NCBI RefSeq assembly: GCF_015644585.1
Contig: NZ_JADOBI010000003.1
Location: 124,001 to 188,000 of the forward strand
Source of the DNA: Rahnella laticis
Lineage (GTDB): Bacteria > Pseudomonadota > Gammaproteobacteria > Enterobacterales > Enterobacteriaceae
DNA: 64,000 bases
Reading direction: 5' to 3'
The notes beneath the pieces are model-generated. The model had not been told where the DNA came from. It was given only the letters and a program-made list of their open reading frames with translations, and searched no databases. Both the position numbers and the translations under genes were made by a program. This document shows positions 50,649 through 63,570 of the stretch, piece by piece. Position 1 is the stretch's first letter, and every line of letters begins with the position of its first letter.

Positions 50649-50724
50649 GCCCGGATAGCTCAGTCGGTAGAGCAAGGGATTGAAAATCCCTGTGTCCTTG
50701 GTTCGATTCCGAGTCCGGGCACCA
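50649..50724 (+). tRNA. pheV: tRNA-Phe (GAA)
   Basis: 76 nt with CCA encoded. Acceptor stem GCCCGGA/TCCGGGC, D arm TAGCTCAGTCGGTAGAGCA, anticodon loop with TTGAAAA (anticodon GAA), T arm TTGGTTCGATTCCGA. Differs from E. coli tRNA-Phe only in one anticodon-stem pair. In E. coli pheV sits at the equivalent place and is a frequent island insertion site; the symbol is by position. Confidence 0.96.
50702..50724 (+). other. Probable attL of the island (tRNA-Phe 3' end)
   Basis: P4-type integrases usually recombine at the 3' end of a tRNA, here the T-arm and acceptor sequence ending GAGTCCGGGCACCA. A P4-type integrase gene begins 196 nt away. No second copy of this sequence was found to the right, so the other boundary is outside the window. 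Confidence 0.5.
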
Positions 50725-50735
50725 AATTCATATCA

Positions 50736-50763
50736 ACGGACCTCCACGGAGGTCCGTTTTTGT
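50736..50763 (+). terminator. Terminator of tRNA-Phe
   Basis: ACGGACCTC-CACG-GAGGTCCGT then TTTTGTTT, 11 nt past the tRNA. Confidence 0.85.
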
Positions 50764-50919
50764 TTGGTTTTCTCGCTAGAATCAACGCCTCGCCTCTAAT
50801 TCAATTCCACTGAACTCAATCTAACTCTCCCCACATCAAGCCGCTTGTGCGGGTACAAATGAGGGTATAGTCTGATTCGATAATATTTATACCCCTTAAT
50901 ACAATCAGGAGACCTTTCC

Positions 50920-52176
50920 ATGGCACTCACTGACGCAAAGATCCGAGCGGCTAAGCCGGATGAAAAACCCTATAAACTCGCCGACAGCGGCAACATGTTT
51001 TTACTGGTGCATCCCAACGGCTCTCGGTACTGGCGACTCCGCTATCGGTTTTTGGGTAAGGAGAAAACTCTCGCTCTGGGGGTTTACCCCGAGGTTTCTT
51101 TATCTGAAGCACGTGAAAAGCGTGATGAAGCCAGAAAGCTGATTGCAACAGGCATTGATCCCTGCCAACAAAAACGCGTTAAGAAATCCGTACCAGATGT
51201 TGCTCATACGTTTGAAGCTGTTGCCCGCCAATGGCACAGTAGCAATAAAAAGTGGTCTGATTCACATAGCGAGAAAACCCTAAAAAGCCTTGAAAGTCAT
51301 GTTTTTCCATTTATTGGCGCACGAGATATCACCACGCTGCAAACGCCCGACCTTTTAGTCCCTGTTAAAGCGGCTGAAGCAAGAGAGATTTACGAAATTG
51401 CCTCCCGCCTGCAACAACGCATCTCGGCAATCATGCGATATGCAGCACAGTCCGGTATCATCAATTACAATCCGGCGGCAGATATGGCTGGTGCGCTGAC
51501 TACCGTAAAACGTCAGCACCGCCCTGCCCTTGCCCTCAGTCGCACTACTGAGCTTATCAACCGCATTGCGACCTACAAAGGACAGCCGCTGACCAGCCTT
51601 GCCACAAAACTGACGCTGCTGGTTTTCATTCGCTCCAGTGAACTGCGTTTTGCGAGGTGGCCTGAAATTGACTTTGAAAAATCAATGTGGACCATCCCTC
51701 CTGAACGTGAACCTCTCCCTGGCGTTAAACATTCACACAGAGGCTCTAAAATGCGTACGCCGCACCTGGTCCCTTTGTCGCGGCAGGCTCTGGATATATT
51801 ACGGCAAATCCACACTATCAGTGGCGAGCATACGTTGGTCTTTACGGGCGACCATAATCCCTGGAAACCAATGAGTGAAAACACCGTCAATAATGCATTA
51901 CGCCTCATGGGCTACGATACAAAAGTGGATGTTTGCGGCCATGGCTTCCGGGCGATGGCCTGCAGCTCATTAATTGAGTCAGGGCTGTGGTCGAAAGATG
52001 CCGTGGAGCGACAAATGAGCCATCAGGAACGTAACGGTGTGCGTGCGGCGTATATTCATAAGGCAGAGTTTCTGGATGAACGCAGGCTGATGTTGCAATG
52101 GTGGGCTGATTTTCTGGATGCAAACGCTAAAATAACTGTGAGCCCGTTTGAATTTGCAAAACTACACTCTGGATAG
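50920..52176 (+). CDS. P4-type tyrosine recombinase (island integrase)
   Basis: 418 aa. N-terminal arm-binding DUF4102 domain: MALTDAKIRAAKPDEKPYKLAD, then YWRLRYRFLGKEKTLALGVYPEVSLSEAREKR. Central SAM-like domain from residue 95. The C-terminal catalytic domain has Arg238 (FIRSSELRFARW), His341-x-x-Arg344 (CGHGFRAMA), His368 (MSHQE) and the nucleophile Tyr378 (AAYIHKAEF). The catalytic set is complete, so the enzyme may be active. It lies directly after tRNA-Phe and points into the island. Confidence 0.95.
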   Translation: MALTDAKIRAAKPDEKPYKLADSGNMFLLVHPNGSRYWRLRYRFLGKEKTLALGVYPEVSLSEAREKRDEARKLIATGIDPCQQKRVKKSVPDVAHTFEAVARQWHSSNKKWSDSHSEKTLKSLESHVFPFIGARDITTLQTPDLLVPVKAAEAREIYEIASRLQQRISAIMRYAAQSGIINYNPAADMAGALTTVKRQHRPALALSRTTELINRIATYKGQPLTSLATKLTLLVFIRSSELRFARWPEIDFEKSMWTIPPEREPLPGVKHSHRGSKMRTPHLVPLSRQALDILRQIHTISGEHTLVFTGDHNPWKPMSENTVNNALRLMGYDTKVDVCGHGFRAMACSSLIESGLWSKDAVERQMSHQERNGVRAAYIHKAEFLDERRLMLQWWADFLDANAKITVSPFEFAKLHSG

Positions 52177-53911: not shown

Positions 53912-54433
53912 TCATGCGGAGGCCATCGCAAGGTAGTGAAGCTGCCGCACCCCTAATTTTCTGGCGATGTTCTTACGCCATCTATAGAGGGTTTTCGCGT
54001 CCCTGTGGTAGTAGAGGGTCAGAAGGGTAAAAGGTATACCCTCGAGAGACTGTTCGAGTAAGACAGCCTCTCTGTAAGAAATGGCCGCCTTTTTTGCCAG
54101 AGGGGAGAGGTTCATTTTTTCGCCATTACCGAGGCGGCGTAGCCTGGAGACCATCATCTGAAGGGGGGTATCGCTTTTGAACACGCCCAAAATGGTGCCA
54201 ATGTGCTGGTGGTAGCACATTGCCAGAGGGTAAAGGTGCACGTCAGCAATCAGCACCACATCCTGCAGGTGTCCCAGAGCAGAAATAAATCTGGTTGGCA
54301 GCAGCGCCGCAATGTTAGTTCTGCTGAAGTTCACAAACAGCGGAGACACTTTTCCGCCCCGCTCAATCTCACGGACCAAACCGGCGGAGCCGAGCGTAAA
54401 GTACGGATTATCTGTCACGTTCCCTTGAAGCAT
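53912..54433 (-). CDS. LuxR-type HTH regulator of the fimbrial island (downstream copy)
   Basis: 173 aa, ATG at 54433 with GGAG seven bases upstream. The N-terminal domain (residues 1-105) is not a recognised sensor. The C-terminal part (about 108-170) has the LuxR/FixJ HTH outline: LSPLAKKAAISYREAVLLEQSLEG, then KTLYRWRKNIARKLGVRQL, where the second segment is the recognition helix with the typical KLGV ending. It is likely a regulator of the adjacent fimbrial operon, but direction of control is unknown. A second such protein lies at the far end of the operon. Confidence 0.7.
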   Translation of the reverse strand: MLQGNVTDNPYFTLGSAGLVREIERGGKVSPLFVNFSRTNIAALLPTRFISALGHLQDVVLIADVHLYPLAMCYHQHIGTILGVFKSDTPLQMMVSRLRRLGNGEKMNLSPLAKKAAISYREAVLLEQSLEGIPFTLLTLYYHRDAKTLYRWRKNIARKLGVRQLHYLAMASA

Positions 54434-54989: not shown

Positions 54990-55793
54990 TCACGAACAGG
55001 TCAGACTTACAAGAAGCGAAGTGCTCCATACGCCCCTGACGCCGGAGGTGGCATCCACGGTCAGCGGAAGCGTCCCCGATGAGGGCATTTCCCATACCCC
55101 CCCCGCTGATATATTGTTGCTATCCGTAGGATAAACTTTTACCTGACTGCCAACCCCCCCTAACGCTAAATTACCGCTCGAGGAGATATTATCCGAGTTT
55201 ATGGTCATGGCTTTGGAGCTGGCTGTGCCTGTGAAACTGGCCTTAATCGATGATGACGTTCTGACACCCGCTTTGACCGTACCCAGGTCGACATTATCAA
55301 CCGTTGCGGAACAGGTCGAATTGGCTGGGATTGTGATATACGCTATGTCTGCATTATCAGAGTTACCGCCGGAGAGCAGCCAGACCACGTATACTTGCAA
55401 GGTTTGTTCCTGAAGTGTCTTGTTGGTTAAAGACCAATTTACTGTAAAGGCAGAATGTTGAGAAAAAACTTTCGTTACTTTTTTGCAAGTCCCCCTTGAT
55501 TCAAACATTTGTGTAGTTCCAACTATACTTGGGACAGGTGGAATATCAAATGCATTGGCAGTAAAAATATTGATGGGGCAATCATAACTATAGTTTTGGT
55601 CCTCTACCCCACTAGCACTTCCGCCATTTGCAGGACGAAGTGTAACTATAATTGTCGTATTCCCATTAACGCGGGAGAATGCTCTGCTTCCGCTCACCGT
55701 CTGAGTTGTATCAGCGCTAATGGTGACGGCGCTTGAGAATGCACAGTAAAATACCACCACAGTATAAATGGCGTATCGTGATAAGAATTTCAT
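54990..55793 (-). CDS. Candidate two-domain fimbrial tip adhesin
   Basis: 267 aa, last gene of the operon. Signal peptide to about residue 22 (MKFLSRYAIYTVVVFYCAFSSA). The N-domain (23-155) has one Cys pair (Cys72, Cys103). The C-domain (156-267) looks like a pilin fold, starting with CSATVDNVDLGTVKAG, with Cys161 and Cys266 as a second pair. The final residues SLTCS lack the usual penultimate Tyr. Size and position fit a tip protein that binds a receptor, but no known lectin domain is recognised. The gene has a G8 and a G7 tract in the C-domain. More AT-rich than the usher gene. Confidence 0.65.
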   Translation of the reverse strand: MKFLSRYAIYTVVVFYCAFSSAVTISADTTQTVSGSRAFSRVNGNTTIIVTLRPANGGSASGVEDQNYSYDCPINIFTANAFDIPPVPSIVGTTQMFESRGTCKKVTKVFSQHSAFTVNWSLTNKTLQEQTLQVYVVWLLSGGNSDNADIAYITIPANSTCSATVDNVDLGTVKAGVRTSSSIKASFTGTASSKAMTINSDNISSSGNLALGGVGSQVKVYPTDSNNISAGGVWEMPSSGTLPLTVDATSGVRGVWSTSLLVSLTCS

Positions 55794-55890
55794 GCTTCGA
55801 CCTTTTGATAAGAGTTAGCGTTAACTGATAACAGCTGTACTTATTATTTTATCGTTATCAACCTCAATAAGCCTTAATATTGAATATGCT

Positions 55891-56409
55891 TTAGCTGTAG
55901 CTGAAGGTTATCGACAGGGGGATTTGTATAGAACCCGCTTGCATTTGAGCGCTTTCTTTTGAGGGGAGCAATTGCACATCAACCTCAAATGTGACGGCTT
56001 TATTCAGAACGTTAAGCCCCCAGGAAGTCCCGTTCGATAATTGCGTCACCGTCCCCGCTTTATAAGCACGGGCAGAGACTGTTGCTGTTCCCGCGTTTTT
56101 AAATAATCGGGTATTGGCATCTGGCGTACCCGTCAGCGTCGCCGTTACCCTCGTGGTGGTGTCCGGACACGTTAACTTTATAGTAGCCCGTTTATATTCA
56201 CCTCCCTCCGTGCGGAAACCTGTCATATCTACTTTCCCGAAATCCAGAGTGGTACTCGCACCTGACTCAATGGTGCATGTATCATCCCGGATAGTGATAC
56301 TCATCGTTATCCTGCCACTCCCCGAACCGCTCAACGCTGAGAATAACGGGCATATGCAGAGAACCGTACCCAGTAAAGCCTGTCGAAGGAAAACGCTAAT
56401 ATTTTTCAT
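55891..56409 (-). CDS. Minor fimbrial subunit
   Basis: 172 aa with signal peptide MKNISVFLRQALLGTVLCICPLFSALS. Mature part has the pilin pattern: CTIESGASTTLDFGKVDMTGF, second Cys in KLTCPD, RVTATLTGTPDAN and the C-terminal PLSITFSYS with penultimate Tyr for donor-strand exchange. 197 nt after the preceding minor pilin; probably part of the tip fibrillum. Closest to FimF/FimG-type proteins. Confidence 0.82.
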   Translation of the reverse strand: MKNISVFLRQALLGTVLCICPLFSALSGSGSGRITMSITIRDDTCTIESGASTTLDFGKVDMTGFRTEGGEYKRATIKLTCPDTTTRVTATLTGTPDANTRLFKNAGTATVSARAYKAGTVTQLSNGTSWGLNVLNKAVTFEVDVQLLPSKESAQMQAGSIQIPLSITFSYS

Positions 56410-56606
56410 TATCCCTCTGATTTATATATTTACAATACATAGGATTATTGAGGTAACCATGATTAAAATAGACTTCTTGAAAAATTAACATGTTTCAGCC
56501 AGTATTATTCCCATGCTTAAAATACATCGTGTTACCCCTAGTATTATTTCCTGCGAAAACATCAGAGCATGATGGATTCATTTTCAGGGGCTGTGATAAA
56601 AAACTG

Positions 56607-57143
56607 TTAACTGTAAGAATATGACACGGAGATTACAGCCAATACGGTTCCAGACGTCATAGCGACATAACGTGGATTATTCGATGCAACATACTTTCTC
56701 ACGAGTGTGAAAACAGTAGGGAAAGTGACGCTGTGCGACGTAGCATCCACGTTTTTAGTCCATTGGTGACCGTTACTCACGGTTTGCCCGGCACCAGAGT
56801 TTCTATAGGCTCGCACCCCCACCCCTGTCGCCGACCCCATGTTTGTAAAAATTACTGTGCCGGCATCCAAAGTGCCGCTGAACGTTGCCGTGGCTGTTAC
56901 CGTCGTGTTAGAACAATTCGTTAATGTTAGATTTATCAGGCGGGCAGATAGGGTGGAAGAGGAAACCTTGTCAATATAAACCTCCCCAAAATCCTCCTGG
57001 TAAGCACCACTAACCGTACAGGTCGGGTTGACAAGACTGCCCGTCACGTTTATTGAGGCATTTTGCGCACAGGCTGCCGGCATGCCAGCCGCGCTCAGCG
57101 CAGTCAGGATAAGAGCCATACTGCAGGTTTTTTTGGCATTCAT
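56607..57143 (-). CDS. Minor fimbrial subunit
   Basis: 178 aa from the ATG at 57143 with AAAGG upstream. Signal peptide MNAKKTCSMALILTALSAAG to about residue 26 (ACA). Pilin pattern ASINVTGSLVNPTCTVSGAYQEDFGEVYIDK with Cys pair closed by LTLTNCSN, then TATFSGTLDAG and the C-terminal VISVSYSYS. EDFGEVYIDKV parallels LGEYYVDKI of the next gene, so the two probably arose by duplication. Confidence 0.85.
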   Translation of the reverse strand: MNAKKTCSMALILTALSAAGMPAACAQNASINVTGSLVNPTCTVSGAYQEDFGEVYIDKVSSSTLSARLINLTLTNCSNTTVTATATFSGTLDAGTVIFTNMGSATGVGVRAYRNSGAGQTVSNGHQWTKNVDATSHSVTFPTVFTLVRKYVASNNPRYVAMTSGTVLAVISVSYSYS

Positions 57144-57193
57144 TAACCTTTCCTTTTTATTATCAACCGGTCTGCCTGTCAGCCAACTGCGCA

Positions 57194-57703
57194 TCAACTG
57201 TAGGTAAAAGCTACATTCACCGTCGCCAGTATGGTTCCGGGGGCAGGAGTTAGGCTGTCATCCTTATTGACCCTGGCTTTCATTTTGAATTCAACCGCTT
57301 TGGAGGTGCCGTTCACGGAAGCATTCATGGACTTTCCGTTACCTAACCCAGCCGGCGTGGTCGCATCCGTGGCCAGCTCTATATGGATATTTTTAGCGGT
57401 TCCAGCGTTGGCGTAATACCAAACTGGCGATGTCGTATCCGGCGTCCCGCTGAACGTTGCGGTCACGGTTGAGGTGCCGGTCGGACAACTGCTCAGGGAG
57501 AGGGAAAACGGAATATAATCCCCGCTCGCTTTTATTTTATCCACGTAATACTCCCCCAAATTGACCGGCTTTGTGGCCGAGTCCACCGTACAGGGGCTGG
57601 CCTTAATCGTGCCGGTGAGCGTAATCACCGTGTCCGCCGCACACGATAAACCGGGTAAAAACAGCAGCACTGTCACCATCAGGGCCTGATATCTCGAACG
57701 CAT
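57194..57703 (-). CDS. Minor fimbrial subunit
   Basis: 169 aa from the ATG at 57703, which follows GGAAGGAG; starts further upstream in frame lie inside the usher gene. Signal peptide MRSRYQALMVTVLLFLPGLS. Pilin pattern VITLTGTIKASPCTVDSATKPVNLGEYYVDKI, LSLSSCPTGTSTVTATFSGTPD, C-terminal TVNVAFTYS. 17 nt after the usher stop; probably a tip adaptor. Confidence 0.86.
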   Translation of the reverse strand: MRSRYQALMVTVLLFLPGLSCAADTVITLTGTIKASPCTVDSATKPVNLGEYYVDKIKASGDYIPFSLSLSSCPTGTSTVTATFSGTPDTTSPVWYYANAGTAKNIHIELATDATTPAGLGNGKSMNASVNGTSKAVEFKMKARVNKDDSLTPAPGTILATVNVAFTYS

Positions 57704-57720
57704 AGCTCCTTCCTCACTTA

Positions 57721-60345
57721 TCACTGACCGCGACATTGCGTAACCAGCCGGTAAACGGATGGCGCACTCTTTTCTTCGGGCAGACGCCAGCGCGCCGTGC
57801 AAGACTGGTCCTTTTCCTCCCCCCATTTAGCCTGGAGAACCCCCTCTTGCTGCATCCCCGACAGGTAAACCTGCCCGTCATCTCCGACGATGCTGCCCCG
57901 GTCGCCCACCCTGACGATGGCGCCAAACGGCAGGGGTTTTTGATTCATCATCAGCTTCATCAACACGCGGGCCCCCTTGTTGCCTTTGTAGGAAGCCCTG
58001 ACAATCGCGCCTCTGGTAGGAACCACCGTACGCACCATGTCTTCCAGCTCAACATCTTCCGCCAGGGAGGCGGGGTTGAGCCCCACCCTGTTTTCACGAT
58101 AGGCCGTGGCGTAGGGTTTAATGGCGTACCCCCGCCAGTCGGTCCTCACCCCGGTCTCATTTTCCACTTCGGTACCCGACACGCCCGGAGCCGCGACGAG
58201 CACGCCGGTCTCGCCAAGTTGCTGACCAAACGTCAGGCCGTTGCGGTGCAGAACGGCCCCTCCGCTCACGCCATAGTTTATCTGCCGGTTCGTGGGGCTG
58301 TAGCTGTATCCGGCATTACCAGCGCCGTATGTCCCCTGATAGCCGGCAAAAAGGCTGCCGTTATTTCCCGCATCGCGTGCGTACTGTTGGGAAACGTTCC
58401 AGCTGAGGCGGTTATCTTCCAGCGCCGTTCCGCTGAGCCCGGCGCTGTGCGTAAGGGCGCCGTTCGTATCGCGGGCTGCGCTATAGTTCGCATACAACGT
58501 ACCGGATGAGGAGGCGCCTGCCGGTGACATAAACGCCGACAGCGGCACAGAGATATTCAGAAACGCCGTGCGGTCAGCACCTCCCCGCCCCGCATTTTTG
58601 CTGTACCCGTAGCTCAGGCTGTAAGAGACGCTCCCCACCGAGCTGCTAAAACCGGTCTGTAACGAACTGCTGGCCCCGCTCAGCCCCCAGTAGGTCTGAT
58701 GTACCCCGGAAAGATACACTGACCCCAGGTCGCCCAGGCGCTGCGTTACCGTAGCCTGAAACTTCGAACGTTTGTTGTTATACAGGTTGAAGTAATCCGC
58801 TGAGGTCAGCTGTATCAGCTTCCCATCGGCATCCCGCTCTTGCGGGTCCCTGAGCCAGCCGCTCATCCTCTTCAGCGCCGTCTCGTCCAGCGTATGAAAC
58901 CCCTGCGTGGAGTAGCGGTAACCCGTAAGCTGAAAGGTGGTGCCAAGCGCATTCAGCGAGCGCGCATAAAGAAACCGCGCGGACTGCCCTTCCTGCCGGC
59001 TTCCGTCAGGCAGCGTACTGTCGGCATGCGTCACATCCACGGACACTGCCCCCAACAATCCCAGGTTCAGCCCGCCTCCGAGAAGCGCCGAGCGGTAGTT
59101 TCTCGCGTACTGCATACCGGCATACGCCGTGGTGTTGTAGGGAAGCCCCCATATGAACGCCCCCTGAACGAACTGCGGGCGGTTGTAGTTATTCCCCGAC
59201 GGCCGGTACGTACCCGCGGTGAGCGAGTACTGCACGTTCCCTTCCCGCTGCAGGACCGGTACCGCGGAGTAGGGCACCACGAATTTACTGACCGCGCCAT
59301 CCGCCTCTGTCACCGTGACCTCCAGGTCACCGCTGGTGGTCACGGAATACAAGTCATTAATGGCGAAAGCCCCCGGGGGCACAAACGCCTGATAGACTGA
59401 GTATCCGTTCTGGCGGATGTCCACGCGGGCGTTGGTGCGGGCCACCCCTTTTATCACGGGGGCATACCCCCGCAGGCTGTCGGGATACATATTGATATCA
59501 CTGCCCATCTGTACCCCCCGAAATCCCAGGGGGTCAAATACGTCGCCGGGAGTGGTGCTGTCACCTACCACCAGCTCACTGCGCAGCGGGATGACGGCCC
59601 GGCTGACCTGAGACTGTACATGCTGCCACTGTCGGGTGTGCCCCAGAGGGCCGGAATAATCATTCATCGTCCAGTAGTCTCTGGCACGCCAGGGTCCCAG
59701 ATTTACCCCGCCGTTCAGGTAGGCATAGAGCGTCTTTCCGCTTTGTCCGTTATTGCTGCTGTTACTCCCGCTGATGCTGTAGTTGAGCATGGCCGCATTA
59801 ATCCCCTCATCCCAGCGCGCCGGTGAGATATAACCGCGGGCCACGCTCTTCATGGCCACCTGGGGAACGCTGATATCCAGGCGCATCTGTTGAAAGTCGA
59901 AGCGGGTAAACGCCCCGGTGATGTAGTGGCCCGGCGAGATACACCCCCCGGGCTTCACTTCTCGCATATCAGGAAACAGGGAAACATTCACGCCGGAGCT
60001 CTCCAGCTCTTCCATCGTCAGGCAGGCCATTAAGCCGGTTTCATCCCTGATAGCATCCGCCAGTACGGCGGACTCTTCATTTATCCCGCTTTTGTCAACA
60101 AACACGATATCCCGGCTGGCGGAGAGGACGTTGTTGATATAGACATCCACACGGTAACTCCCCGGCAGCTGTGCTCCTTCTTTTTCAAATCGCTGAAGGT
60201 CAGCCACCATGTCCGGGTCTGACGAAATAAGCGCCGGGGCGAAATAAAGCTCAGCGTTGGCGGCAGGCAGGAATAACGCCGTGGCAATCAACGCCGCTAT
60301 CAATGTCGGCACCGACCTGGCTCGTTGACCCAAATAGACGTCCAT
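57721..60345 (-). CDS. Fimbrial outer-membrane usher protein (FimD family)
   Basis: 874 aa, intact. Signal peptide to about residue 31 (LFLPAANA). N-terminal periplasmic domain with AELYFAPALISSDPDMVADLQRFEK and GSYRVDVYINN; the 24-strand barrel with the plug (SLRGYAPVIKGVARTNARVDIRQNGYSVY and VPPGAFAINDLYS). C-terminal domains end with VVPTRGAIVRA, PLPFGAIV and Cys pairs. Exports and assembles pilins delivered by the adjacent chaperone. Reads GC-richer than the pilin genes after it. Confidence 0.95.
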   Translation of the reverse strand: MDVYLGQRARSVPTLIAALIATALFLPAANAELYFAPALISSDPDMVADLQRFEKEGAQLPGSYRVDVYINNVLSASRDIVFVDKSGINEESAVLADAIRDETGLMACLTMEELESSGVNVSLFPDMREVKPGGCISPGHYITGAFTRFDFQQMRLDISVPQVAMKSVARGYISPARWDEGINAAMLNYSISGSNSSNNGQSGKTLYAYLNGGVNLGPWRARDYWTMNDYSGPLGHTRQWQHVQSQVSRAVIPLRSELVVGDSTTPGDVFDPLGFRGVQMGSDINMYPDSLRGYAPVIKGVARTNARVDIRQNGYSVYQAFVPPGAFAINDLYSVTTSGDLEVTVTEADGAVSKFVVPYSAVPVLQREGNVQYSLTAGTYRPSGNNYNRPQFVQGAFIWGLPYNTTAYAGMQYARNYRSALLGGGLNLGLLGAVSVDVTHADSTLPDGSRQEGQSARFLYARSLNALGTTFQLTGYRYSTQGFHTLDETALKRMSGWLRDPQERDADGKLIQLTSADYFNLYNNKRSKFQATVTQRLGDLGSVYLSGVHQTYWGLSGASSSLQTGFSSSVGSVSYSLSYGYSKNAGRGGADRTAFLNISVPLSAFMSPAGASSSGTLYANYSAARDTNGALTHSAGLSGTALEDNRLSWNVSQQYARDAGNNGSLFAGYQGTYGAGNAGYSYSPTNRQINYGVSGGAVLHRNGLTFGQQLGETGVLVAAPGVSGTEVENETGVRTDWRGYAIKPYATAYRENRVGLNPASLAEDVELEDMVRTVVPTRGAIVRASYKGNKGARVLMKLMMNQKPLPFGAIVRVGDRGSIVGDDGQVYLSGMQQEGVLQAKWGEEKDQSCTARWRLPEEKSAPSVYRLVTQCRGQ

Positions 60346-60377: not shown

Positions 60378-61082
60378 CTATTGAACTGGCACGCGCTGAA
60401 CCGGCGTGACGGCGCCATAATCGTTGATGGTGCGAAAGCTGATGGTATTGCCCGGCGAGCCGGCCGCAGAAATCAGCGCCGTTCCACGCGGGGGAACCAT
60501 GGTGTCCTCTGGCTTTTGCGCACCGGTCATAATTTGCGCCATCGTAATGTAGTAGGGGGACGGGTTAGTGACCTCTGTCTGGTTCCCCTTACGCCGGAAC
60601 GTCAGCATCCCGGGGGCTTTTTCAATCGACGGTTTTAGCCCTGACGGTCGCAGAAACAGCTTGACGCGCGTAATGGCGGCAAGGATAAGCATGTTTTTGC
60701 CTTCAATTTCTTTTTTATCCATGGAAGGGATAGACTTTACGTTGAAATAATAAAGTGACTCCTGGTCCTTCTTTTGCGCGTCGCCCACATACATTATTCT
60801 GAGGGTATTTTCATTTCGCGGGCCGCTGACAAATAAAGGCGGGGTGACAATAAAGTCCGGCGTTTTCTTACCGTCCGGGGACTCCACCCAGCTCTGGATC
60901 ATAAAGCTGGTTTCTGCCGACGTATTACGTACGGACATGCCGACTTCTTTCTGACCTGCCGGATAAATAACGCGGGTCCCCCCGATGGCAATTCCCCCCT
61001 CAGCACTGGCAGTGGATGCTGCTAATAAACACAAGGGAATTAATAGCGTGTGTAATGCCGCCCTGAATGGAATAGAAAACAT
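60378..61082 (-). CDS. Periplasmic fimbrial chaperone
   Basis: 234 aa from the ATG at 61082 with GGAGGGAA upstream. Signal peptide MFSIPFRAALHTLLIPLCLLAAS. PapD-like: GIAIGGTRVIYPAGQKEVGMSVRNTS, then G1 strand RNENTLRIMYVG, SLYYFNVKSIPSM and AAITRVKLFLRPSGLKP. Short F1-G1 loop as in FGS chaperones that assemble rod-like fimbriae. It folds the pilins by donor-strand complementation. 32 nt before the usher. Confidence 0.94.
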   Translation of the reverse strand: MFSIPFRAALHTLLIPLCLLAASTASAEGGIAIGGTRVIYPAGQKEVGMSVRNTSAETSFMIQSWVESPDGKKTPDFIVTPPLFVSGPRNENTLRIMYVGDAQKKDQESLYYFNVKSIPSMDKKEIEGKNMLILAAITRVKLFLRPSGLKPSIEKAPGMLTFRRKGNQTEVTNPSPYYITMAQIMTGAQKPEDTMVPPRGTALISAAGSPGNTISFRTINDYGAVTPVQRVPVQ

Positions 61083-61114
61083 AATTCCCTCCAAAAATGA
61101 AAAGCAGAATGAAT

Positions 61115-61147: not shown

Positions 61148-61741
61148 TTACTTATAGGTAACGGTAAAGTTCACCATCGCATTTGCAGCACCCGCGGTTG
61201 GGTTAGCCGCGGTGGAGACAAGGTTCGCCGTAAAGGGGATGGTGGAGCCGTTGGCGTTAAGAGTCTGCGCAGCTGCATCCGCCGAACCATCCAGGGCAAG
61301 GGCTGTGCCGTTTTGGGCAATCTCCACGCCCACGTTCGTTGCGGAATTATCCGCAGCGCCGAGTGCCAGGGCTTTAGTGTTTCCGGATACGGTGGTCCCC
61401 GTGAATTTAACGGTTGCTGTTGAATAATTGGCAGCGGCAGCCCCGGCCGCTGTCACGCCGGTAAGGTCACAATCGACCAGTTGAATATTAAACCCTTTTG
61501 AAGGGCCCTTGGCCCCCGAGGTTTTGAGCGCTTTAGCCGTCACATCCCCCAGGAGAACGGTCTGCGACTTACTGTCTGACTGAATAATGCAGGGGGTATT
61601 AACCACACTCCCTTCAAAGTTGATCACTCCCCCGGTAGAGCTTGCAGTCACCGGTGCATCTGTCTCAGCGGCAAAGGAAGGGCTCGTTATTCCTGCCAGC
61701 GTAATGATAACCAGGCTTTTTTTAATCCAAGCGTTTTTCAT
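61148..61741 (-). CDS. Major fimbrial subunit (FimA-type pilin)
   Basis: 197 aa, first gene of the operon, AAGGAT before the ATG. Signal peptide MKNAWIKKSLVIITLAGITS to about residue 24 (SFAA). Mature pilin with GGVINFEGSVVNTPCII (Cys51) and QLVDCDL (Cys91). Very Ala-, Thr- and Gly-rich, as is typical for rod pilins, ending VNFTVTYK with penultimate Tyr. Strong candidate for the rod subunit. Confidence 0.92.
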   Translation of the reverse strand: MKNAWIKKSLVIITLAGITSPSFAAETDAPVTASSTGGVINFEGSVVNTPCIIQSDSKSQTVLLGDVTAKALKTSGAKGPSKGFNIQLVDCDLTGVTAAGAAAANYSTATVKFTGTTVSGNTKALALGAADNSATNVGVEIAQNGTALALDGSADAAAQTLNANGSTIPFTANLVSTAANPTAGAANAMVNFTVTYK

Positions 61742-61847
61742 ATTTCATCCTTATATAAGTAACATCCGCACAACACAGGTTGTCCATTCACTACAAGCCT
61801 ATGCCGCAGCAAAATGGATACATCCCGTAAAATAAAATTCCGCATCA

Positions 61848-61876
61848 CGTAAATAACGCAAATAACGCAAATAACG
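61848..61876. repeat. 9-bp tandem repeat upstream of the major pilin
   Basis: CGTAAATAA, CGCAAATAA, CGCAAATAA and a partial CGTA follow one another, about 107-135 bp upstream of the pilin ATG, near where a promoter would be. Confidence 0.8.
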
Positions 61877-62049
61877 TAGTTTAGGTTTATTCCTCGATTT
61901 CAATCCATAGCTGACCACCATCAATCCTTGATGTAAAAAATATCGAAAATCACGTCATCCAGCCGTCGAACTAGAGCCTTTAAATAAATCAAGTCACTCT
62001 ATGTTTAAAATCAAAAAACCATTGCCAGGCCTATTATCCACAATTTCCA

Positions 62050-62104
62050 TTGATCGTCAATTCCGATCAAGATCTTTTTATTGATAGCCACAAACTATCA
62101 ATAA
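62050..62104. promoter_or_regulatory. Two related palindromes, candidate operator pair
   Basis: TTGATCG-N7-CGATCAA (62050-62070) and TTATTGATAG-N7-CTATCAATAA (62078-62104) are perfect inverted repeats with the same 7-bp spacer and the shared half-site TTGAT(C/A)G. Their centres are 31 bp apart, about three helical turns. They lie about 310-365 bp before the pilin ATG. Confidence 0.6.
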
Positions 62105-62901
62105 GACATTATTGATCGATGCATCATTTATTATTTAAATATCACCCCTGTTATCTGCAACCTTTCCTTAAAATACCTTGATACTTGTTTACAAGAGCCA
62201 GGTAGTCACAGGGAAAACAATTAACGGACTAACTTAAAACATGGCGAAATCATTAATAGAAGAGATAAAAAAAAAGCACATTTTTTTCTGCCAAATAAAA
62301 AATTAATAATTATTACCTTAAAGGAGATCTCATTACCCCCACAAAAAAAGGATTAAAAGAATATTTACAAAACAGCCTATTCCCAGCAAGACTGACTTAA
62401 TGGATTTAAGAAATAAATTAATTAGATACCATTTCAACCTACATGATACTTTCCCTGCCTGAACAACCAATTTTTACATGTCAACATGAAGACTGGACAG
62501 GTATTTTTCAAAGAAAACCAGCCCGATAAATTCATAATTACCTGTCAGACTGGTTATTTTACTCACAGCATCTGGAGGGGAGGACTTATTGATAGCAGAC
62601 CATGAGGGCACTAGGGGGGGGTAAAATAAGACACTCTTTAACGCCTTGATATTCTGTCAGGCAGCGCAGAAATGATTGATATGTTCAGTCATGGAGTTAT
62701 TGATAATCAAAATGGAAACCCGTCAAGCTTCCTCAACGTAATATTAAATGTCCGGCAGCTTAACTGGGACATCGCAGATACGCCAGGCTCTTCCAAATAT
62801 AGCACTATCACCGTCATAATTTGTATTACCTGCATACCACCTGATGTCGTGCCCCCGCCTCCTACAAGGGCAACAGGAAGTATGATCACGCCATCATTTA
62901 T

Positions 62902-63570
62902 TTAATATTTACCGCCATCTTTCTCAACCCTGGTCGCGGTGGAATGTTGTGAAAAGGTACCGCATAAAAATGCATGCTGGCTCGAAACGCCTAACTGCTT
63001 TAGCAATAAAGTACGATGATTATAGACAGATTTAATCGGACAATTTTGCATGCGTGCCTGTTGGCTCTGATGCAGCCCGCATATCATTGACCAGAGAGCG
63101 TGCAAGCGAGGAGGTAACAGCTGGATTTCATGCTGCGCAACCGGTGTTAAGGTCGTCGTACCTTCCAGAATACTCCTGAGGGTATACTGCATGTCCTCAC
63201 AAATGAGCCGTGTAGGAACCATGTAGATATTATTCCCCCTGCCCTCGGTAAGCCCGGCAATACGGAGTAATATACTGGCGCATCTCGGCGGCATATCAGA
63301 AATGATAGCCACCCGCCCTTTGCCCATCTTCTTTGCATAAAAATCAACGAGGGACCTGAGAGAAGTAATTTGCTCCGACAGCGTGCCTCGCAAATACAAA
63401 ATTATCCCAGTAGGCATTTTCTCCGGCAAAATGACAGATTGAGTTTCTTTATAATGAGAAATAGAAGACACCAGACAGCTGAGTGCGGCGCGGCTGTAAT
63501 GACAAGTGTCTGTGATAAGGACATGTATACCTGACGGTGTCATGACTAATGTTGAATTATGCTGTTTCAT
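62902..63570 (-). CDS. LuxR-type HTH regulator of the fimbrial island (upstream copy)
   Basis: 222 aa, ATG at 63570. The N-terminal part (GIHVLITDTCHYSRAALSCLV, ... GRVAIISDMPP) resembles a receiver-like fold, but no full phosphorylation site set is evident. The C-terminal region (about 150-204) LLPPRLHALWSMICGLHQSQQ then KSVYNHRTLLLKQLGVSSQHAF has the LuxR HTH outline ending KQLGV, like the regulator at 53912. It lies directly upstream of the operon on the same strand, so it is likely to control it. Confidence 0.72.
   Translation of the reverse strand: MKQHNSTLVMTPSGIHVLITDTCHYSRAALSCLVSSISHYKETQSVILPEKMPTGIILYLRGTLSEQITSLRSLVDFYAKKMGKGRVAIISDMPPRCASILLRIAGLTEGRGNNIYMVPTRLICEDMQYTLRSILEGTTTLTPVAQHEIQLLPPRLHALWSMICGLHQSQQARMQNCPIKSVYNHRTLLLKQLGVSSQHAFLCGTFSQHSTATRVEKDGGKY

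Follow-up and report, generated by a model that had tools for sequence, protein, structure and literature searches.

OxyR/Dam memory switches are known at a handful of loci, mainly those for LPS modification and one autotransporter. The gtrABC operon of Salmonella phage P22 is a proven switch of this type (Broadbent 2010, passages of PMC2909390). The same passages summarise agn43 of E. coli as a locus at which OxyR only represses, and describe pap-type switches as depending on Lrp and PapI, the distance between the GATC boxes being 102 bp. For opvAB of Salmonella, four GATCs, OxyR sites and heritable ON and OFF states have been described (parts of PMC3350482 and PMC12902445). With respect to fimbriae, OxyR was reported to bind and activate the ucl promoter of E. 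coli (passages of PMC9236248); the main text of that paper contains no occurrence of GATC, of methylation or of phase variation. Effects of OxyR on fimbriae have also been published for fim of S. Typhi and for Xenorhabdus (excerpts), and portions of a review on fimbrial regulation mention Dam together with Lrp and contain no occurrence of OxyR. Among the open-literature matches listed, as judged by titles and the starts of abstracts, no OxyR/Dam switch at a chaperone-usher operon or a mobilizable element was found; an earlier description is possible.

The window, meaning the whole stretch of 64 kb that was analysed, contains a fimbrial operon on the minus strand. Its first gene encodes the major pilin (61148-61741, Pfam Fimbrial, 3.1e-23). 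The further genes are those for a periplasmic chaperone (60378-61094, from the ORF list and used as phmmer seed in the set that finds chaperone-like ORFs) and an outer-membrane usher (57721-60345, tblastn against annotated ushers with up to 61.5% identity), and several ORFs at 54990-57826 that encode probable minor pilins and the tip adhesin (ORF list, labels by eye). Upstream of the pilin gene lies an arrangement of dyads which probably represents an epigenetic switch for phase variation by OxyR and Dam, of the gtr/ucl type and in this case for fimbriae. It is best read as a known mechanism in a new place and with a shifted promoter.

The first-pass annotation had reported two perfect inverted repeats with 7-bp spacers, 31 bp apart and on the same helix face, and both repeats are present as described. 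The promoter-proximal dyad, TTGATCG-N7-CGATCAA at 62050-62070, comprises GATCs at 62052 and 62065, 13 bp apart, and is predicted to be a low-affinity, methylation-sensitive site for an OxyR dimer. The central dyad, TTGATAG-N7-CTATCAA at 62081-62101, comprises no GATC and is the predicted anchor site of OxyR; its core ATAG-N7-CTAT (62084-62098) occurs a single time in the 64 kb. Both dyads are built as 7-7-7 with a gap of 10 bp between them, and their start-to-start distance of 31 bp corresponds to about three helical turns, in agreement with a common helix face. This distance also falls in the range of about 31-32 bp that is typical of neighbouring dyads occupied by reduced OxyR. One more step of 31 bp past the central dyad leads to the promoter-distal site (62112-62132), which consists of a half-site TTGATCG (62112-62118, GATC at 62114) and a degenerate right half. 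None of the three sites is assigned to a strand. The weaker dyad that had been noted here (62113-62126) is only partly right as a dyad, but it coincides with this third half-site, which keeps the 31-bp register and whose GATC is conserved at that offset at other loci. A further dyad noted at 61919-61933 is present in the sequence, but with its arms in reversed order (ATCAA..TTGAT) and at a position that the shared module does not include. The only GATCs of the region 61881-62160 are those at 62052, 62065, 62071 and 62114. Besides the one at 62071, which lies in the linker, they all fall in register inside OxyR-like half-sites. These Dam sites had been missed before and are likely the key to the mechanism.

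For scoring, the OxyR consensus ATAG n T nnn A n CTAT with 10 informative positions was used, which corresponds to the consensus given in PMC2909390, where it is printed slightly differently. The central dyad matched 9 of the 10 positions and is the sole 15-mer with at least 9 matches in the window, and the central site of ucl matched all 10. For the proximal dyad 6 positions matched, compared to 8 for its counterpart in gtr and 7 for that in ucl. A loose dyad search with two mismatches allowed gave four matches, all exact and all originating from the two palindromes on both strands. Since 4.16 matches were expected from shuffles at the same looseness, the counting of loose dyads alone is not significant. 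An arrangement score, calculated as the OxyR-consensus matches plus the GATCs in register and designed post hoc with the window, gtr and ucl already seen, amounted to 15 at the module, and no other value of at least 11 occurred in the window. A score of 15 was never reached when the region was simulated 3000 times with a first-order Markov model; 17 simulations gave at least 11, and the maximum was 13. The excess over chance lies in the whole arrangement and not in loose dyads. When sequence from UTI89 (95 kb), MG1655 (8 kb) and P22 (41 kb) was scored in this way, a value of at least 11 recovered ucl, agn43 and gtr, together with one weaker extra place with a score of 11.

A predicted sigma-70 promoter of the pilin operon lies at 62033-62060 on the minus strand, with the -35 hexamer TTGACG (62060-62055), a spacing of 16 bp and the -10 hexamer GATAAT (62038-62033). 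The predicted -35 sits inside the proximal GATC dyad, and the promoter is directed toward the pilin gene, with an expected start site near 62026 and a leader of approximately 285 nt to the pilin start. In a promoter scan of 61742-62900 this site was the sole match, yet 4.2 matches were expected in shuffles, so that the scan alone proves nothing. When ten modules were aligned on the central site, a -35 hexamer TTGAC(G/T) was located at the identical base, 38 bp from the central site (B+38), in eight of them. These comprise the window, a CS1-type operon of the same genome, its counterpart in P. stewartii and five plasmid loci, and in all of them the -35 lies within the proximal dyad. A -10-like box follows after 16-17 bp in the eight modules, the weakest being that of L153, while the -35 at B+38 is absent from L156 and L159. 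At the level of sequence, nothing supports the promoter and the direction in which it points as strongly as this shared -35. The genome also encodes both proteins of the proposed switch: its OxyR shows 89% identity to that of E. coli with a single change (H15F) in the first 61 residues, and its Dam shows 71% identity. The sequence layout, its conservation, the position of the promoter and the genes for OxyR and Dam are direct observations at this locus.

Binding, competition by methylation, the polarity of ON and OFF and heritability we infer from gtr and ucl. An OxyR tetramer would take the central ATAG dyad and one neighbouring site. If this were the proximal dyad, the -35 would be covered, both GATCs would be kept unmethylated and the operon would be OFF. 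Methylation of the proximal pair by Dam would displace OxyR to the central dyad and the distal half-site, which would leave the promoter free, perhaps activated, and the operon ON. The methylation state would be inherited by daughter cells with rare flips, and the maintenance of the methylation pattern would make the ON/OFF state heritable. By analogy, sister cells probably alternate between a piliated and a non-piliated state. Due to the single distal GATC and the degenerate right half, the two-way switching of gtr is possibly weakened to a simple repression like that of agn43; judged by its sequence, the distal site may activate as in gtr or the locus may be simply repressed as in agn43.

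The motif had been expected upstream of homologous fimbrial operons as well. This holds for seven of ten sampled loci (scores of 11-16) and fails for three, L151, L155 and L158, where the module is absent upstream with scores below 11. The sample comprised 10 of 20 listed plasmid loci, from 2251 plasmid records with usher matches; the skipped rows were the apparent duplicates H45 and H47 and eight others (H53, H55-H61). The ushers of the ten loci showed 47-62% identity to that of the window. For L157 and L159, where the annotation of the operon begins with the chaperone gene, upstream means upstream of the operon. None of 200 shuffled upstream regions scored at least 11, and no further place with such a score was found in the 144 kb of the ten loci. 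In five of the seven positive loci the central site matched only 7-8 of the 10 positions of the OxyR consensus. As a side observation, the fimbrial chaperone genes L152:5131-5832 and L153:5152-5847 are labelled OXA-239 beta-lactamase with 100% identity in PLSDB, which is evidently a mislabelled prediction.

A search of the own genome revealed a second copy of 62033-62105 with 80% identity at a distance of 7.9 kb. It precedes a CS1/Tcf/cable-pilus-like operon, a fimbrial type unrelated to the operon of the window. Since the match starts where the predicted -10 hexamer ends, the promoter, the proximal dyad and the central dyad are common to both copies. The counterpart of the CS1-type operon in P. 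stewartii likewise carries the module. The interval from the second module to the chaperone gene of the CS1-type operon encodes a 113-aa protein without family (L005:5444-5785, minus strand), possibly an operon leader gene or a regulator. About 11 kb from the dyads upstream of the pilin gene, a tRNA-Phe followed by an integrase-like ORF (50920-52176) was noticed at 50649-52176 of the window, and this is a possible left end of a genomic island with both fimbrial operons. A third copy, found by pattern search (G000:C10:55383-55434, equal to L027:10383-10434, minus strand), is located directly after a mobA relaxase gene and ahead of a small lipoprotein-like gene. Near it, three large ORFs in a row resemble recombinases, and the 657-aa one among them gave a Phage_integrase match of 3.6e-5, just under the family cut-off.

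The spread of the module was determined with the exact pattern of the GATC pair and the central dyad, which matched 64 stretches of the GTDB genome collection, 63 of them with enterobacterial titles, and four contigs of a viral collection, in all of which a MobA gene adjoins the module. One match (L047) overlaps long ORFs of a Bacteroidetes MAG; it was taken as chance and excluded. With L049 and L073 dropped as well, where the module is too near to the contig end, 65 of 68 loci were usable. A MobA relaxase stands beside the module in 31 of the 68 loci according to local protein comparison, and in 13 of the 68 the retrieved sequence includes genes for a chaperone, an usher or a pilin. An autotransporter downstream of the module was identified by Pfam in L053 and L095; L082 and L092 resemble these autotransporters by the start of their sequences, as judged by eye. 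In Providencia (L042) and Proteus (L071) a gene for a small XRE-type regulator (HTH_3) was observed between the module and the fimbrial genes. In L058, L060, L078, L081 and L097 the module stands ahead of two uncharacterised secreted-looking proteins in settings that resemble integrated mobile elements; the protein pair of L058 gave no Pfam match over the cut-off. Thinning of the 65 loci at 75% identity left 31 nonredundant ones, in which position 2 of the central spacer is T in 16 and C in 13 loci and position 6 is A in 22. The OxyR consensus has T and A at these positions, and neither base had played a part in the selection of the loci.

In a family-level scan, 46 of 295 genomes had the motif, at 59 places in total, and the reversed control gave no match; the spacing was 31 bp in 49 and 32 bp in 10 of these places. 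The order-wide scan, with limits that included spacings of 30 and 31 bp and left out the 32 bp of gtr, gave 7 places in 5 of 394 genomes, compared to 1+1 in one genome for the control. A BLAST of the 93-bp region against E. coli genomes found no match, although ucl carries the module, because the identity is too low, and a pattern search is needed. In a DNA search with a region of 401 bp, the 59 genomes including the own one gave the two own copies and one match of 36 bp. The latter (L003, G026:C2:185384-185419; 83%, E 7e-4) corresponds to 62108-62143 over the distal half-site and stands in a small genome of the family (1.1 Mb). For the second copy, BLAST against phages returned 42 records, and among the matches listed only short ones with E values of 0.3-0.9 were found.

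These distributions bear on the question whether the GATCs have a function. OxyR could also act here as a plain activator or repressor of the pilin operon, at an operator whose GATCs have no regulatory effect. In the passages of PMC9236248 the ucl data are explained by OxyR, with other cofactors left open, and the published effects in S. Typhi and Xenorhabdus are in line with this as well. Against it, the GATCs lie exactly in register, and ucl itself has three of them in register. Furthermore, 56 of the 65 usable loci (all 31 MobA loci and 25 of 34 others) have a third GATC at a distance of 62-63 bp from the first. Since this third GATC lies outside the search pattern, its conservation is independent of the selection of the loci. 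A plain OxyR operator is therefore unlikely and retains a small probability, compared to the OxyR/Dam switch.

The first-pass annotation had attributed the dyads to LuxR-type regulators flanking the operon, as parts of a cooperative operator. The idea of a cooperative operator for the pilin operon is sound in kind, but the proposed binders are unsupported: the central dyad fits 9 of 10 OxyR positions, and the same module occurs at the OxyR-responsive gtr and ucl. Two regulator-like genes are indeed nearby. The one at the 3' end of the pilin operon (53912-54433, minus strand) is TviA/EcpR-like according to NCBIfam NF011730 (1.1e-12), a weak match of 48 bits compared to a cut-off of 303, and also matched a LuxR-HTH profile weakly (E 0.0045). 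The other (62902-63570, minus strand) has no Pfam match and no similarity to the K. variicola regulator. Of 295 genomes of the family, the own one alone contains it, and it was also detected on three Pantoea plasmids. It shows 38-39% identity to the hypothetical protein that ends the CS1-type operon of P. stewartii, which makes it the likely last gene of the neighbouring operon; it is probably the end of the neighbouring CS1-type operon, so that this regulator fits another operon type.

LuxR-type genes were also seen near other copies of the module, by Pfam near the fimbrial copies L032 and L072 and by the LuxR-HTH profile, among the 68 loci, in L072, L091 and weakly L065 only. The profile, built from three seeds and applied to ORFs of at least 80 aa at E≤1, is weak and misses the window protein 62902-63570. 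With this weak profile and stretches of up to approximately 12 kb each, none of the 31 MobA loci gave a match, which makes a LuxR operator less probable. A single weak match in P22 (E 0.0006) is separated from gtr by about 6 kb. Taken together with half-sites that fit the OxyR consensus, a LuxR operator is very improbable. Both regulators of the window may act on these fimbrial operons, and as defining ligands of the dyads they are unlikely.

The T-N11-A geometry is general for LysR proteins, and HdfR at Salmonella std is an example of a LysR-type, Dam-sensitive regulator. Another protein of this class could in principle bind here, and of the 85 OxyR matches in the genome at E≤0.001, 84 besides OxyR itself are available, each with only 19-38% identity. 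On the other hand, the half-site sequence is that of OxyR, and ucl, gtr and agn43, which have such sites, respond to OxyR, so that a different LysR protein appears slightly less probable again than a LuxR operator. A role of the plus strand in transcription termination or in the formation of RNA hairpins has next to no probability: 62050-62070 and the T run behind it were marked in a scan, and three terminator-like sites were found in the region with 1.0 expected, but the stem has 3 G-C pairs, and its arms are found again elsewhere as DNA half-sites that face either way with respect to the genes.

With the OxyR/Dam switch as the preferred reading, two of the three copies in this genome belong to fimbrial operons of unrelated type and the third to a mobilizable element. 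Whether this reflects a general principle is about evenly balanced. The module would then be a portable OxyR/Dam memory cassette common to horizontally acquired surface genes and mobile elements across enterobacteria, present here in three independent copies per cell; chaperone-usher fimbriae would have OxyR, in addition to Lrp, as a general epigenetic regulator, and ucl and other fimbriae published as OxyR-controlled would be phase-variable through Dam. If this is true, the three copies would give a combinatorial, heritable repertoire of surface states. The reading as an OxyR/Dam switch, if right, would mean that the same switch controls many fimbriae, some autotransporters and mobilizable elements. 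It would also be findable by sequence alone, while the passages of Broadbent et al. describe a novel epigenetic system not readily identified by sequence (PMC2909390). Moreover, the GATC sites would be unmethylated in a fraction of the cells, and a Dam effect on ucl, unreported in the passages of PMC9236248, would be expected.

Compared to the known systems, the locus shares with pap-type switches the proposed Dam-dependent control of fimbriae. It differs in the GATC distances, which are 13 and 49-62 bp, and in the OxyR-like sites. A pap-type Lrp/Dam switch was considered and rejected, as no 102-bp GATC pair occurs in 61881-62160; the PapI/PapB family is absent among the matches of the eight proteins scanned. 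To opvAB, which has four OxyR sites, the locus can be likened by parts of the published descriptions. The agn43 (flu) locus of E. coli, with a score of 12, is likewise an OxyR/Dam switch with OxyR-like dyads bearing three GATCs, but these are distributed over two dyads 32 bp apart, and the cargo is an autotransporter.

The ucl promoter of E. coli UTI89 (L142:9910-10070) also serves a fimbrial operon. Its three sites correspond to those of the window and follow each other in steps of 31 bp; they hold three GATCs in register, among them the same pair at a distance of 13 bp. The register of these GATCs with the OxyR sites suggests a control of ucl by Dam, a dependence not reported in the passages of PMC9236248. 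In contrast to the window, the GATC pair of ucl is distal and the single GATC proximal, and the -35 is about 8 bp further away (hand count). The GATC pair is also on the far side in most loci whose gene follows the third site.

The sequence of gtr from P22 comprises TTGATCG-7-CGATCAA, TATAG-7-CTATCAA and again TTGATCG-7-CGATCAA at 32-bp steps. It agrees with the window in the dyad TTGATCG-7-CGATCAA with GATCs 13 bp apart (GATC1/GATC2), in the central ATAG-N7-CTAT without GATC, and in the order of three dyads with the promoter at one end. The differences concern the steps of 32 bp instead of 31 bp, the two GATC pairs instead of one pair and one single GATC, and the predicted -35, which in the window lies within the proximal dyad. 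Finally, the cargo of the switch is LPS enzymes in gtr, whereas in the window it would be fimbriae.
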